Assembly (NCBI RefSeq): GCF_000003815.2
Contig: NC_049995.1
Span: forward strand, 11,700,933-11,764,932
DNA length: 64,000 bases
From: Branchiostoma floridae
Lineage: Eukaryota > Chordata > Leptocardii > Amphioxiformes > Branchiostomatidae
Direction of reading: 5' to 3'
A model generated the notes under the pieces. It was given only the letters and a program-made list of their open reading frames with translations. It ran no database searches and was not told where the DNA came from. The position numbers and the translations under genes were made by a program. This document shows, one piece after another, positions 2,237 to 63,090 of the stretch (position 1 is the stretch's first letter; the number at the start of each line of letters is the position of its first letter).

Positions 2237-4054
2237 ATGGACAAAACTGGACATCCTGGGAAGGAGACTGACCGCACCGAACACCCTGGGAAGGAGAGTG
2301 ACAGCAGGCGGCAGGGCGAGGAAAGGGCCGTCCCAAATGACGAGGAAACGTGCGATATTAAAGCAGAAATGGAAGAGTCCAGCTGTGAGCTTTCTATTGA
2401 TGAACTGTGTGCTGGGCATCTTGGGAAAGGCATGGACCATTCTGGGAAGGAGACGGACTGTGTAGAAATCCCTGGGAAGGAGAGCATGGAGACCCATACA
2501 ACAGACATGGACCTGCAGCAGGAAACGTCTAATATGAACTTTACCCAACCTGACAACACATCAACCTCACAGGCACAGACGAGCATAGGCAATATGGGAG
2601 GTACACTATTTTTTGTACCTTGGTCACCTATCCCAGTCCAGACTATGATTATCCCTGTCCAGGGTATGACTGTTGGGCATCCTGGAAAGGGGAGTGCCAG
2701 CAGGGAGACCCAGACAACAGACCTGGACCTGCAACAGGAAACGTGTGATGTGAACTTTCCCCAACCTGACAACACATCAACCTCACACGTACAGGAAAGC
2801 AGAGGCAATGTGGTCAAACACACCGGTGAGAAACCCTACATGTGTGAGGTATGTGGTTCCAGGACAGCTCGAAAATGTAACTTAGCCCTACATAAAAGAA
2901 CCGATACAGAACAAATGTCTTACGAGGTTAAACAGCACGACTATTCTGCGGCTCAAAAAGTGGTCCAGAATGACTATTCTGTGGGCCATTTGGACAGTGC
3001 TCTGGTAGCCGATCGCGAACACAGTGTTGACAAAACTTACATGTGCGACAAGTGTGGGTACAGAACAGCTAAAAAGTGCCACTTTTCCAAACATATGACA
3101 ACTCACACAAGAGAAAAGCCCTACAAGTGTGACCAGTGTGACTTTTCCGATTCACGAAAAGGCGACTTAAACAGACACATCAGGGCAAAACACCCCGATA
3201 GAAAACCCTACCAGTGTGGGGAGTGTGGATATAGGGCGGCCAAAAAGTCCAACATATCCCGGCATGAGAGAACACATACTTACAAGTGTGATGAGTGCGA
3301 CTATTCAGCAGCACTGAAAGACCAGTTGGACCAGCACGTCATGATGAAACACACTGGTGAGAAACCCTACATGTGTGAGAACTGCGACTATAGAACAGCC
3401 AACAAGTCTCACCTAGCCCTACATGTGAGAAAACACTTCAAACCCTACAAATGTGACCAGTGCGACTATTGTGCTGCAAGGCAAGACGAGTTAGATCGGC
3501 ACGTCGTTACAAAACATACAACGGAAAAGCCATACATGTGTGAAGAGTGCGGACATAAGACGGCATTTAGATCTGCTCTTATTCTACATAAAAGAAAACA
3601 CACTGGTGAAAAACCCTTCATGTGTGAGGACTGCGGGTACAGAACGGCCGACAGGTCCCACTTATCTCGACACATCAGAATCCACACAGGTGAAAAACCC
3701 TACAAGTGTGATCAGTGTGACTATTCTGCAGCAAACAAAGACCATTTAGACGAACACGTCGTGAGAAAACACACCAGTGCGAGACCGTACAGGTGTGAGG
3801 AGTGCGGGTATGGAACGACAACTAAGACCATACTAGCCCGACACATGAGAACCCACACAGGTGAAAAACCATACGGCTGTGATCTGTGCGACTATTCTGC
3901 CGCAGAGAAAGCTTGTTTAGAACGGCACATCATGGTAAAACATACCGGTGAGGAACCGTACATGTGTGGTGAGTGCGGGCACAGGACAGCCGATAGGTCC
4001 CATCTAAGAAAACATATGAAAAAACATTTTGATGGGAAACCCTCTCAGACGTGA
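2237..4054 (+). CDS. C2H2 zinc-finger protein, 12-14 fingers
   Basis: A protein of about 605 residues, probably a nuclear DNA-binding factor. The N-terminal 190 residues have repeated HPGKE motifs and two copies of a TTD(M/L)DLQQET..NF.QPDNTSTS module. Fourteen finger positions follow. The first has its last His replaced by Asp and the second has lost its ligands. The remaining twelve, from CDKCGYRTAKK to CGECGHRTADR, keep Cys2His2. Several fingers use a four-residue His spacing (H...KH) and one linker is missing between two fingers. The frame stays open upstream of this ATG through CDEDPGKE back to a likely splice acceptor at 2171, so the true start is probably in an upstream exon. The ATG at 2237 is simply the first in this exon. 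An AATAAA lies at 4271. Whether this and the preceding gene share 5' exons cannot be decided here. Confidence 0.85.
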   Translation: MDKTGHPGKETDRTEHPGKESDSRRQGEERAVPNDEETCDIKAEMEESSCELSIDELCAGHLGKGMDHSGKETDCVEIPGKESMETHTTDMDLQQETSNMNFTQPDNTSTSQAQTSIGNMGGTLFFVPWSPIPVQTMIIPVQGMTVGHPGKGSASRETQTTDLDLQQETCDVNFPQPDNTSTSHVQESRGNVVKHTGEKPYMCEVCGSRTARKCNLALHKRTDTEQMSYEVKQHDYSAAQKVVQNDYSVGHLDSALVADREHSVDKTYMCDKCGYRTAKKCHFSKHMTTHTREKPYKCDQCDFSDSRKGDLNRHIRAKHPDRKPYQCGECGYRAAKKSNISRHERTHTYKCDECDYSAALKDQLDQHVMMKHTGEKPYMCENCDYRTANKSHLALHVRKHFKPYKCDQCDYCAARQDELDRHVVTKHTTEKPYMCEECGHKTAFRSALILHKRKHTGEKPFMCEDCGYRTADRSHLSRHIRIHTGEKPYKCDQCDYSAANKDHLDEHVVRKHTSARPYRCEECGYGTTTKTILARHMRTHTGEKPYGCDLCDYSAAEKACLERHIMVKHTGEEPYMCGECGHRTADRSHLRKHMKKHFDGKPSQT

Positions 4055-17404: not shown

Positions 17405-18775
17405 AGTATTTTGTTTTTCGCCGGTAGCTTTTCTCACCGGTGTGCTTTACAATGGTTGTCCGAAGTAGATTTCAGTGCAGCAGAGTTACACTGGTCACAC
17501 TTGTAGGTTGTGTCACCTGTCTGATATTTCATATGTTGGGATAACTTACAAATGTGAGTTACACTTCCATATAGGGCTTACAATGTATTACCAGTGTGCT
17601 TGGCTAGATGTTTGTTAAAGGTGGGCTTATATGCAGCAGAATACTCAAACTGGTCACACTTGTAGGTTTTCTTCAAATGTGTGAGATTTCATATGTTCGG
17701 ATAAGTTAAAAATGTGAGTTGCCTTGTACTAACACTCCCCACATATATATAGAGCTCACAATGTATCACCAGTGTGCTTTGCTAGATGACTGTCCAAGTT
17801 GGATTTGTGTGCAGCAGAATAGTCACACTGGTAACACTTGTAGGGTTTTTCTCCACTGTGTTTGGCCAGATGATTGTTCAAGGCGGACGACGCTGCTGCA
17901 GAATAGTCACACTGGTCACACTTGTAGGGTTTCTCTCCTGTATGAGTTCTCATATGTAGTCGTAAATGGGACTTTTGAGCTGCCCTGTACCCACACTCTC
18001 CACACATGTAGGGCTTATCACCAGTGTGTATGGCTAGATGACTGTCCAAGTTGGATTTGTGTGCAGCAGAATAGTCATAATGGTCACACTTGTAGGGTTT
18101 CTCTCCTGTATGAGTTCTCATATGTAGTCGTAAATGGGACTTTTGAGCTGCCCTGTACCCACACTCCCCACACATGTAGGGCTTATCACCAGTGTATATG
18201 GCTAGATGACTGTCCAAGTTGGATTTGTGTGCAGCAGAATAGTCACACTGGTCACACTTGTAGGGTTTCTCTCCTGTATGAGTTCTCATATGTAGTCGTA
18301 AATGGAACTTTTGAGCCGCCCTGTACCCACACTCTCCACACATGTAGGGCTTATCACCAGTATGTTTGGCTAGATGACTGTCCAAATGGCTTTTCGTTGC
18401 TGCAGAATAGTCACACTGGTCACATTTGTAGGTTTTTTGCCCTGTGTGTGTGTTCTCATGTGTTGTGATAAGTGAGACTTCCTTGCTGTTCTGTACCCAC
18501 ACTCCCCACACATGTAAGGTTTCCTACCAGTGTGTTTGGCTAGATGATTGTTCAAGGTGGACTTCGAAGCTGCAGAATAGTCACACTGGTTACATTTGTA
18601 TGGCTTTTCACCGGTATGAGTTCTCATATGTTCGGCTAAAAGACACTTCTTAGCTGTCCTGTGCCCACACTCCCCACACATGTAGGGTTTCTCACCAGTG
18701 TGTTTGGGCTTATCACCACTGTGTTTGGCCAGATGCTGGTTCAAGGTGGACGACGCTGCAGCAGAATGTGAACAG
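17405..18775 (-). pseudogene. C2H2 zinc-finger array, frameshifted and truncated
   Basis: About eleven recognisable fingers on the minus strand resemble those at 309-4054. Reading from 18775, a headless finger (CSHSAAASSTLNQHLAKH) is joined by fused linkers (SGDKPKHTGEKP) to YMCGECGH-type fingers. At 18443-18452 a CA/TG run carries two extra bases that shift the frame inside the HMRTHTG linker. Fingers then continue in another frame to 17756. One has lost its last His (HLAIY) and one a Cys (CDHYDY). Below 17756 at least two more fingers are visible with several stops. No N-terminal region is present; a repeat abuts the 5' side. It is most likely a dead copy, although the indel could be checked in raw reads. 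Confidence 0.8.
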
Positions 18776-19013: not shown

Positions 19014-19149
19014 TATGAAAAAGGGGTAGGCCTTGAGCAATTTCCGGTCTGTATCTAAGTTAGGTAAATATCATTTATCGGTCGCCCGTCGGGTACACTT
19101 GCCTTTTTAAACAAGATCTGTTTCGTCTGACACTAACACATTCGTAATC

Positions 19150-19640
19150 CAGCCCCTCAAGCTTTGTCCTGATACTTGCTACAAGTAACCGAACACAACA
19201 GGCTGTTTACTACACCTCCAGTAGCTATGGTGACAATTGTAGGGCCAGTTCAATATTTCTTTGGAGAAGAAAAAGAGGAAGTAGAAGAAGCGGAGCAAAA
19301 ACCATTGTGTTTTTCTTTGTTTCCGTGAAGGTAAAGATGCCCCCCTCCCCACCCCAACTTTCGTCACCCTGAAAAGTCTTGCATTTCTGCCTAATGTGAT
19401 CCACATACCGTAGAAATTACCTCTTTCCCCGATAGTTCATGATAATGCAGTCATGTTGTATGTATATCTCGTTCTTACCTGCTTCCAGTGATGATTATTA
19501 CCTCCGCACGATCCTCCTGCAAGCGTCTGTCTGGAGCAGCAAGGGGTGAAAGGTGACTGCTACAGTGGGGTGAAAGGTCAATTGATACCTGCTTACCCAT
19601 AGTTGTGTAGTATGTTCCGCTTACAGTATTGGTGAGGATA
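19150..19640 (-). repeat. Inverted copy of the 61265-63090 segment (uninterrupted version)
   Basis: Read on the minus strand, this matches 61265-61472 and then 62842-63090 without the 1.37-kb insertion found there. Both copies keep an ATG-led stretch (MGKQ..DLSPH..SHLSPL then AAPDRRLQED) followed by gtaagaacg, and a second stretch encoding KCKTF.GDE...GEGGIFTFTE. They look like two exons of an unrecognised gene or element. In this copy an 11-base insertion follows the GCGGAG of the first exon. Confidence 0.65.
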
Positions 19641-19734
19641 TTTTTATCTGAATTTGGCTCTTTAGGTGGTAGAATTAGGTCCCCAGACCCATTAAATGAT
19701 ATCCAACAGCCTTTCTGGACTTTTAGATCCATAA

Positions 19735-61264: not shown

Positions 61265-61472
61265 GCGGAACGTACCAATAATGGGTAAGCAGGCATTAGA
61301 TGACCTTTCACCCCATAGTGCCAGTCACCTTTCACCCCTTGCTGCCCCAGACAGACGCTTGCAGGAGGATTGTGCGGAGCACTGGAAGCAGGTAAGAACG
61401 AGATTTACGTACAAAAGAACTGCATTATTATGAACTGAAGTGGGTAGAGGTCATTTCTATGGTATGTGGGGC
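61265..61472 (+). repeat. Duplicated exon-like segment, part 1
   Basis: It matches the minus strand of 19430-19640. ATG GGT AAG CAG starts MGKQALDDLSPHSASHLSPL, and the stretch ends CACTGGAAGCAG|gtaagaacg, a consensus splice donor. Conservation of both the open frame and the donor in two loci suggests a real exon. The protein is not recognised. Confidence 0.5.
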
Positions 61473-61500
61473 AAAACTATGAAAACCTCTCCCTCCTTTT

Positions 61501-61702
61501 TCAGCACTGGAACCCAGTGCTGAAGATGGCGTCAGCACTGGATTTCCAGTGCTGAATGTTCGTCAGCACTGGATATCCAGTGCTGACGCGCTCTCAGCAC
61601 TCGAAACCCAGGGTTCAGCACATGGACACCGAGTGCTGACAAACATGCAGAACTGGATATATAGTGCTGACGAACATTCAGCACTGGAAACCGAGTGCTG
61701 AG
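61501..61702 (+). repeat. Hairpin array, left block (7 units)
   Basis: Units start at 61501, 61532, 61563, 61594, 61615, 61646 and 61678. Spacing is 31 bases (once 32) except one 21-base step. Each unit is TCAGCACTGG, 3-4 bases, then CCAGTGCTGA, followed by a 7-8 base spacer. Units 4-6 are degenerate. Confidence 0.92.
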
Positions 61703-61801
61703 AGATCGGGAGACTCTGAGATATACAGTAATTTGGAATTACGATACGTCCTTTGCCCTACTACTAAAACTTAAGACATTGCTGGATTATAAACGTCACC
61801 T

Positions 61802-61873
61802 ATGGCAGACCTCATCCTGTTGGAAGTTCAGCGGCGCCTCTTCAACGACAACAACAACGAGGAGGCAGGCTGA
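61802..61873 (+). CDS. Small open frame upstream of histone stem-loop
   Basis: A 23-residue frame (MADLILLEVQRRLF, then Asn-rich, ending EEAG) stops 20 bases before the stem-loop. It is not a histone C-terminus. It could be the remnant of a captured transcript or chance. Confidence 0.2.
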   Translation: MADLILLEVQRRLFNDNNNEEAG

Positions 61874-61893
61874 AGTCTGCCTCACAGCACCCC

Positions 61894-61914
61894 GGCCCTT
61901 TTCAGGGCCACCCA
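61894..61914 (+). promoter_or_regulatory. Histone mRNA 3' stem-loop
   Basis: GGCCCTTTTCAGGGCC followed by ACCCA fits the metazoan histone stem-loop consensus GGYYYUUHUHARRRCC-ACCCA at every position, with a 6-bp stem and a UUUC loop. In replication-dependent histone mRNAs it binds SLBP and directs cleavage without polyadenylation. No histone gene is adjacent. Confidence 0.75.
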
Positions 61915-62308
61915 AATCTTTCCCAAAAGGGCTATATCTATCACAATCACACAATAAAGTTGCTTATTGTTATAATGACAGCTATCCCTTAAACACCTCT
62001 TACACATATACATATATCTACCTTTCAATTACACATGTACAACGAATAAAATACACAACTTTACACGAAGTTTTCTTTGCACGAAGTAACTTTAGTCAAA
62101 TTTGCCCTTTTACTAGTACCGCTATCAGTACTTTATAAAAAAATGTGCAATAAAGGTCTTCATTCATTCATTCATTCATTTTATAAATGATATATATCCC
62201 TTATACAGTATACATATATTCAATTAAATAACGAATGGATAGCACAACTACAATTTTCTTTGCACGAAATAACTTATCTTTCCTTCGAATTTACGTCTTG
62301 TACCCCTC

Positions 62309-62818
62309 TCAGCACTGGGAGATTCCAGTGCTGGAAGGACGTCAGCACTGGTTCGCACATCGTTCCAGTCCTTTAAAGACGTCAGCACTCGTTTTCCAGT
62401 GCTGAAGATTTCACAGCACTGGTTTTCTAGTGCTGAAGTGTCCTCGAGCACTGGTAGTGCGGAAGGCGAGGTTTTTGTATATCAGCACTCGGTTCCAGTG
62501 CTGACGGCGATTTCAGCACTGGGTAACCAGTGCTGAATGACCTTTGACCTGACCCGGCCCCGACATCCCCGTATTTCAGCACTGGTAACCGAGTGCTGGC
62601 GGCAGTTCAGCACTGGAAAACGAGTGCTGACAGAAGTTCAGCACTGGAAAACGAGTGCTGAAAGAAATTCAGCACTGGAAAACCAGTGCTGAGGGAGTTT
62701 CAGCACTCGAACAAGGCCGATCAGCACTGGAAAACGAGTGCTGAAAGAATTTCAGCACTTGAAAACCAGTGCTGAGGCCGTTCAGACAATTGATTCAGCA
62801 CTGGAACACCAGTGCGGA
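62309..62818 (+). repeat. Hairpin array, right block (~15 units)
   Basis: Units start at about 62309, 62342, 62382, 62413, 62445, 62482, 62513, 62576, 62607, 62638, 62669, 62700, 62721, 62752 and 62795. The 31-base step dominates. A 63-base step (62513 to 62576) equals two periods with one unit lost, and 62700 to 62721 is another 21-base step. Many right arms read CGAGTGCTGA, giving one mismatch. A 22-base segment gtgcggaaggcgaggttttt occurs both at the right end and internally at 62457-62476. Confidence 0.92.
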
Positions 62819-62841
62819 AGGCGAGGTTTTCGTAGACTTGC

Positions 62842-63090
62842 GTATGTGGGCTACATTAGACGGAAATGTAAGACTTTCCGGGGCGACGAAAATGTGGAAG
62901 GGGAGGGGGGCATCTTTACCTTCACGGAAACAAAGGAAAACATTGTTTTTGATCCGTTTCTTTTAAATCGTCTCCAAAGCACAAATAATGAAGTGAGCAG
63001 ACAGCTGTCACCATGGTTACTGGAGTTGTAGCAGACAACCTGTGGTGTTCGGCCACATGTATCAAGTATTTATAACTTAAAGGACAGAGC
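62842..63090 (+). repeat. Duplicated exon-like segment, part 2
   Basis: It continues the match to the minus strand of 19150-19410 on the other side of the inserted element. An open frame KCKTFRGDENVEGEGGIFTF is conserved in both loci (KCKTFQGDESWGGEGGIFTF). It ends where the (TTG)n tail of a LINE begins. Confidence 0.5.

Follow-up and report, generated by a model that had tools for sequence, protein, structure and literature searches.

A Foldback-like transposon family of Branchiostoma floridae with arrays of palindromic units and a histone-type gene end

The nearest described element to the one reported here is Tm1 of Meloidogyne (root-knot nematodes), which is alike in plan and different in sequence. 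Tm1 is a Mutator/Foldback family and has a known Phantom-like transposase. It makes target-site duplications of 8-10 bp, most commonly 9 (45/53), and has asymmetric 7-bp tips (CGGTTAA/CCTACCC) and arms composed of a tandem 14-bp motif C. One class, Tm1-HH, contains a histone hairpin, which the authors proposed was acquired from host sequence (PMC3169594). In the literature searched, Tm1 was the only case of a histone-type 3' end inside Foldback elements. Galileo of Drosophila, a member of the P superfamily, also has long arms with internal repeats, and these repeats were shown experimentally to act as extra (secondary) transposase sites; the same 2013 paper noted transposase binding by the arm tandem repeats of Foldback and Phantom as untested (PMC3688188). 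Tetris of Drosophila virilis is Foldback-like, with 8-10 bp duplications, tandem-repeat arms and no autonomous copy found by its authors (PMC4079207). Meanwhile, Rehavkus and Phantom, which make duplications of 9 bp and 8-10 bp, some with a minisatellite near one end, are defined by their transposases, with a PHD finger in Rehavkus and a FLYWCH/SWIM MULE enzyme in Phantom (PMC6446971).

We analysed a 64,000-nucleotide stretch of Branchiostoma floridae DNA, hereafter the window, which contains an element of 1371 bp at positions 61471-62841. The element is flanked on both sides by exact copies of GTATGTGGG, a 9-bp duplication that is absent elsewhere in the window on either strand. Its ends are inverted repeats, GCAAAACTATGAAAACCTCTCC at 61471 and GCAAGTCTACGAAAACCTCGCC read inward from 62841. 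An initial annotation of the window had proposed a Foldback-like transposon with inverted-repeat ends and a 9-bp flanking duplication; both structures are present as described, and its end at 62841 stands, whereas its start at 61473 has to be moved to 61471. It had also pointed to a homologous segment at 19150-19640 as the empty site. When the two flanks are joined and aligned to the reverse complement of 19100-19660, the score is 442, against a maximum of 28 over 100 shuffles, and this segment carries the target only once, as GTATGTGGA. The empty site is thereby confirmed and, together with the exact duplications in the family copies described below, supports the Foldback-like assignment. The features of the locus are the following.

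61462..61470, no strand: target-site duplication, left copy GTATGTGGG
61471..61496, plus strand: left terminal inverted repeat, GCAAAAC-type tip, subfamily A core AAAACCTC
61501..61701, plus strand: left array of CAGCACTSG dyads, step mostly 31 bp
61808..61873, plus strand: 3' end of a coding region, DLILLEVQRRLFNDNNNEEAG-stop, homologous to the final residues of a 266-aa gene on the same contig
61894..61909, plus strand: histone 3' stem-loop GGCCCTTTTCAGGGCC (RF00032, 33.8 bits, E 1.3e-6; family cut-off 34)
61925..61933, plus strand: conserved AAAAGGGCT downstream of the stem-loop (alignment)
62144..62182, plus strand: retroelement-like tail (TGTGCAATAAAGGTCTTCATTCATTC...), resembling a stretch at about 18978 (read from the sequence)
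62309..62817, plus strand: right array of CAGCACTSG dyads
62456..62479, minus strand: internal copy of the terminal inverted repeat core, the same core as at both ends (repeat analysis)
62816..62841, minus strand: right terminal inverted repeat, GCAAGTC-type tip
62842..62850, no strand: target-site duplication, right copy GTATGTGGG
19150..19640, minus strand: paralogous empty site, single target GTATGTGGA at 19400-19408 (flank alignment)

At least three subfamilies (A, B and C) make up the family to which the element belongs. A search of the genome (513 Mb in 431 contigs) with the terminal repeat, which the initial annotation had suggested, showed the same ends in many other copies: at no more than one mismatch the A/B tip matched 179 times (0 for a reversed-pattern control), and at no more than two the C tip matched 284 times (control, 10). 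The working set consisted of sixty fetched A/B copies complete at both ends (24 A, 34 B and 2 unclassed). The window's own copy is outside this set, 10 of the 40 stretches of one fetched batch were dropped for lack of one end, L001-L008 duplicate other stretches, and L018 was trimmed by hand to its inner end pair because a neighbouring element is adjacent. Two C-type stretches (L104 and L105) had no complete end pair within the fetched sequence. Duplications were exact over 9 bp in 45 of the 60 A/B copies, had one mismatch in 4, measured 8 bp in 1 and were not seen by this test in 10; eight of nine C copies had exact 9-bp duplications, bringing the total to 53 of 69 pairs. The closest pairs, L036/L041 (99.1% identical) and L013/L014 (98.8%), occupy different target sites, which indicates recent movement. 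This is a real, recently mobile Foldback-like family. The outcomes that the initial annotation had named as fatal to its proposal, namely the lack of a second copy, duplications of other lengths or a satellite independent of the tips, did not occur. As a separate observation, a C-type element at C15:9842291-9843557 (L094+L102) lies inside sequence that is itself a hairpin array; therefore, these elements nest in one another.

The same annotation regarded the element as undescribed. This holds in that the literature searched, which did not cover repeat databases, gave no prior description of the family, and it needs qualification in that a structural analogue, Tm1, is in print. LanceleTn is a published name of an amphioxus MITE, and no paper under that spelling was found in the literature searched. 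PMC5802833 writes the name as LanceletTn-2, and the excerpts of that paper on amphioxus repeats and of a paper on Mutator evolution (PMC6446971) make no mention of the present family.

Tm1 and the window family share 9-bp duplications in most copies, asymmetric tips, arms of tandem repeats in variable number, small non-autonomous copies and an internal histone hairpin, which in Tm1 is confined to one class and in the window copy scores 33.8 bits against a cut-off of 34. They differ in their tips (GCAAAAC/GCAAGTC here, CGGTTAA/CCTACCC in Tm1), in their repeat (a 31-bp palindromic unit against the 14-bp motif C) and in that the hairpin here belongs to an identifiable gene with intact relatives (PMC3169594). 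Because tips and repeat differ, the left tip being GCAAAACTACG and the right tip GCAAGTCTACG in 58/60 A/B copies each, the family is not a member of Tm1, although by analogy it may work like Tm1. As in Foldback elements, the arms are long terminal repeats of short tandem units, the number of which differs between copies and between ends. Galileo likewise has long arms with internal repeats, with binding shown for Galileo only; it differs in superfamily, and a histone stem-loop is unmentioned in the excerpts of PMC3688188. Tetris differs in having TIR-220 repeat units, and the strings "palindrom" and "hairpin" are absent from the text of PMC4079207. Rehavkus and Phantom resemble the family in duplication length, whereas no transposase of the kinds that define them was found here with these tips (PMC6446971). 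Two features stand out in the window family: helically phased dyads with a common tip core, and an interior histone-type gene end.

The gene end between the arrays, together with its histone 3' stem-loop, had been missed in the initial annotation. In the window copy, a reading frame ends in LEVQRRLFNDNNNEEAG-stop and is followed by the stem-loop (Rfam). The interior of this copy is a gene remnant; the intact relatives of that gene are single uninterrupted frames with a histone-type 3' stem-loop. Two such relatives, encoding 266 and 265 aa, are found on the same contig (C17), about 167 and 480 kb from the element, and have no introns, as judged from sequence without transcripts. Their stem-loops score 36.4 and 35.5 bits and were the only ones among 17 sources to pass the RF00032 cut-off of 34. 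Across 795 coding bases the two genes have 9 differences, 7 at third positions (dN 0.005, dS 0.034), while identity over the 1.5-kb block is 94.5%; the low coding divergence relative to the block suggests selection on the protein. Upstream and close to the start, both genes have TATTTAAA and ATTGGCTAA boxes, which we take to be histone-like. The conserved AAAAGGGCT is placed like a histone downstream element, presumably with that function. A search for U7 snRNA (RF00066) gave no match, and its control likewise gave none anywhere.

The 266-aa protein matches 13 places in the genome. It has no Pfam or NCBIfam family over cut-off and no PDB match, thus none of these three sources identifies it as a histone, and no relative was confirmed in viral contigs. 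Five weaker matches cluster on contig C6 (26.1-28.1 Mb), possibly a diverged gene group. A further gene-end lineage, L114 (C221:22664-23464), has a diverged histone-like stem-loop by sequence, with no RF00032 match at E 0.01 and no hairpin array within its 801 bases. Upstream of the 266/265-aa genes, contig C17 also contains tandem arrays of units of about 57-74 bp with a short inverted repeat (L096/L092 and L093/L101), and about 3 kb upstream of one of the two genes lies an 84-bp zinc-finger-like array.

Among the elements, the gene end is preserved to different degrees. Over 21-25 residues, the tails of A and B copies share 76-86% identity with the contig-17 protein, and the C copies L111 and L112 align over 84-136 residues at 44-50% identity and retain the stem-loop. 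In four of the 34 B copies, about 80 bp around the start (the promoter/ATG region) abut the array, and the sequence then jumps to the 3' flank. The stem-loops of the A, B and C copies tested scored 24.1-33.8 bits, none reaching the cut-off, and cmscan found no stem-loop in L036 or L049. Judged by coordinates, one above-cut-off stem-loop from the genome search (C3:4422392) is located 346 bp inward of a C tip. Of the 60 A/B copies, 13 retain the stem-loop (9/24 A, 4/34 B and 0/2 unclassed), a count made at up to two substitutions with a narrower exclusion (12 at up to three), and the other 47 lack it; therefore, it is dispensable in cis for transposition. In six pairwise comparisons, identity was 90-96% in the stem-loop region, 50-83% upstream, 73-100% in the next 26 bases and 71-87% further downstream. 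Conservation thus peaks at the stem-loop yet continues beyond it.

Neither an autonomous copy nor a transposase gene bounded by these ends came to light among the long copies and open reading frames tested. Two long copies, L049 and L107, were rejected as autonomous elements on account of their reverse-transcriptase-like (LINE-like) reading frames (Pfam RVT_1 was tested for L107 only). Nineteen selected reading frames from L060-L063 and L106 had no transposase domain; one of them, in the larger L060/L061-type stretch, had a Myb/SANT-like DNA-binding domain (PF13837), and those of L063 and L106 had no domain over cut-off. L060 (11,770 bp) and L062 (7,725 bp) each contain a large stretch within their hairpin arrays that no other element of the set has, of 10.6 kb in L060/L061 and 6.5 kb in L062. 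The autonomous partner with a Mutator-type transposase that the initial annotation had envisaged did not emerge: the genome has 27 occurrences of the MULE domain PF10551, and all of them are more than 15 kb from the tip matches listed (compared by eye). Aside from the present family, these 27 coding stretches contrast with a 2019 survey in which MULE transposases were undetected in Branchiostoma floridae, as given in the excerpts of PMC6446971.

The palindromic arrays occupy much of both arms. The initial annotation counted about 22 hairpins in the window element, which is a fair figure, since a scan allowing up to four substitutions gives 18 and more degenerate units raise the count. Across the 55 of the 60 A/B elements that measure up to 3 kb, the unit is a dyad of CAGCACTSG with a 3-4 base centre in 546 of 566 strict hairpins. 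Spacings between successive same-strand half-sites (n=755 under 110 bp) are most often 31 (385) or 21 (102), with smaller classes at 29-33, 40-44, 52, 62-64, 73-75 and 106; hence the 31-base step reported earlier is the prevailing one and is not steady. When periods of 8-14 bp are scanned, 10.7 bp fits the spacings best and 10.5 bp almost as well, which is near the helical repeat. We attach no probability to this period because the spacings are inherited through shared descent of the copies and are partly sums of each other (62 = 2 x 31). The exact palindrome occurs 769 times in the genome (control 0), and 44 of the 50 occurrences listed, all on contig C1, lie within 2 kb of a listed tip match (compared by eye).

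A second sequence signal is the 8-base tip core, which reads AAAACCTC in A, AAAGCTTC in B and AAAGTAAC in C. Of 69 elements compared, 14 lacked an internal TGTATATC site. In 49 of the remaining 55, the core is the same at the left tip, the internal copy and the right tip; among the six that disagree, four resemble chance TGTATATC matches. For the internal copy, the commonest distances to the right end are 363 and 373 bp. The dyads are constant between subfamilies while the core differs, and we infer two recognition layers, one of common dyads and one of a subfamily-specific core.

The initial annotation had offered three roles for the hairpins: transposase sites, products of replication slippage or RNA structures. 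The last of these, extended to DNA cruciforms (small-RNA precursors or replication structures), draws on the ability of adjacent units to fold and on E-significant Rfam microRNA matches over the arrays, the best of which (mir-586, 49.1 bits, E 1.7e-8) is far below its cut-off of 89. However, selection for a hairpin would predict covariation at position 8, where pairs are freely broken: of 544 hairpins in which both sides have G or C at this position, 312 are unpaired. Among 166 distinct hairpins, counted from units with up to three changes, only 10 position-pairs are altered on both sides, and only 2 of these are Watson-Crick. This absence of covariation makes a hairpin role unlikely, helical spacing would be needless for RNA structure, and we hold the RNA or cruciform reading to be very improbable. 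Variation in unit number among copies and ends would also be expected of a passive, functionless minisatellite generated by slippage and unequal exchange. Against this, half-sites are about five-fold better conserved than linkers across subfamilies. Between the right-arm consensuses (built from copies of 900-2500 bp, 21 for A, 24 for B and 2 for C, leaving out one unclassed copy), half-sites diverge at 13/251, 9/233 and 14/233 positions (3.9-6.0%) and linkers at 69/279, 76/273 and 76/261 (24.7-29.1%). This conservation and the proximity of the listed palindromes to element tips also speak against an ordinary satellite, and we give the minisatellite reading only a small chance, if a somewhat better one than the RNA reading. 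Of the three roles, the evidence favours the first: the dyads appear to behave as protein half-sites rather than RNA. The absence of covariation, the half-site conservation and the spacing together point to putative sites on one helix face for a multimeric protein.

The same kind of weighing applies to the superfamily and to the origin of the gene. The 9-bp duplications lie within the range of Mutator elements (MULEs; 8-11 bp, usually 9), which is weak evidence because other superfamilies share such lengths, and Mutator is our best guess for the window element. P-type elements make duplications of 7-8 bp, against the exact 9 bp found in 53 of 69 pairs, so that a Galileo-like element of the P superfamily seems unlikely here. 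In favour of such an element, the arms of Galileo are also long and internally repeated, with demonstrated secondary transposase sites (PMC3688188). As to the gene, it might be captured host cargo with no role in transposition, taken up perhaps twice (once for A/B and once for C). Such an origin would resemble that of Pack-MULEs, which capture gene pieces. In the stretches fetched, no hairpin array accompanies the intact contig-17 genes or the additional relatives, the closer match of the A/B tails than of the C copies to the contig-17 protein is as separate captures predict, two elements (L032 and L033) bear another coding-like stretch exclusive to them, and the stem-loop is missing from most A/B copies. 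On the other side, wherever copies retain the gene end, it sits between the arrays in the same orientation in all three subfamilies, and the four B copies that keep the promoter/ATG region and the 3' flank have lost the middle, as deletion derivatives would. A and C stand at unequal distances from the contig-17 gene, a pattern compatible with two captures and also with contig-17 genes derived from an A/B-like element and since stripped of its arms. We regard host capture as a serious contender with somewhat less than an even chance, and slightly favour an interior gene ancestral to the element.

On the whole, the window element is probably a non-autonomous Foldback-like cut-and-paste transposon, with arrays of putative transposase half-sites and an interior derived from a gene with histone-type signals. 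Such an element would be moved in trans by a transposase encoded elsewhere. The helically phased CAGCACTSG dyads would be half-sites for the transposase or a partner protein, loading a multimer that would synapse the two ends, and the 8-base core at each tip, with the internal copy near the right end, may set subfamily specificity. In this scheme, an ancestor would have expressed the interior gene as a non-polyadenylated, replication-phase message, and the present copies would be internal-deletion derivatives of that gene-bearing ancestor. A bolder and rather doubtful extension is that a Foldback/Mutator-like lineage carries a helper gene with histone-type signals, its message confined to DNA replication, and that the Tm1 hairpin reflects the same strategy, convergent or ancient. 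If so, the message would be present only in replication, when cut-and-paste elements can gain copies, and the histone hairpin of Tm1 would be no accident of capture.

The three subfamilies constitute a natural experiment: half-sites are fixed across them, linkers diverge, and the tip core changes in concert at all three of its sites. A histone-type gene end inside such elements prompts the question whether they couple themselves to DNA replication. Its occurrence in Foldback elements of a second animal phylum beside Meloidogyne, with an identifiable gene and intact relatives, makes replication-coupled transposon expression directly testable.

Further observations concern other sequences in and around the elements. 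The coding-like stretch of L032 (C11:6741421-6742843) and L033 (C4:26620913-26622368) is 107 aa long and lies on the minus strand; its source gene was not found in the assembly, where only these two elements match. The retroelement-like tail (CAATAAAGGTCTT, followed by CATT repeats) occurs in the window both at about 18978 and at 62144-62182, and a similar tail in some other copies ends or adjoins reverse-transcriptase-like remnants. Finally, tandem arrays with a period of 84/168-171 bp at positions 849-1629, 3593-3979 and 17784-18728 of the window read as C2H2 zinc-finger coding repeats.
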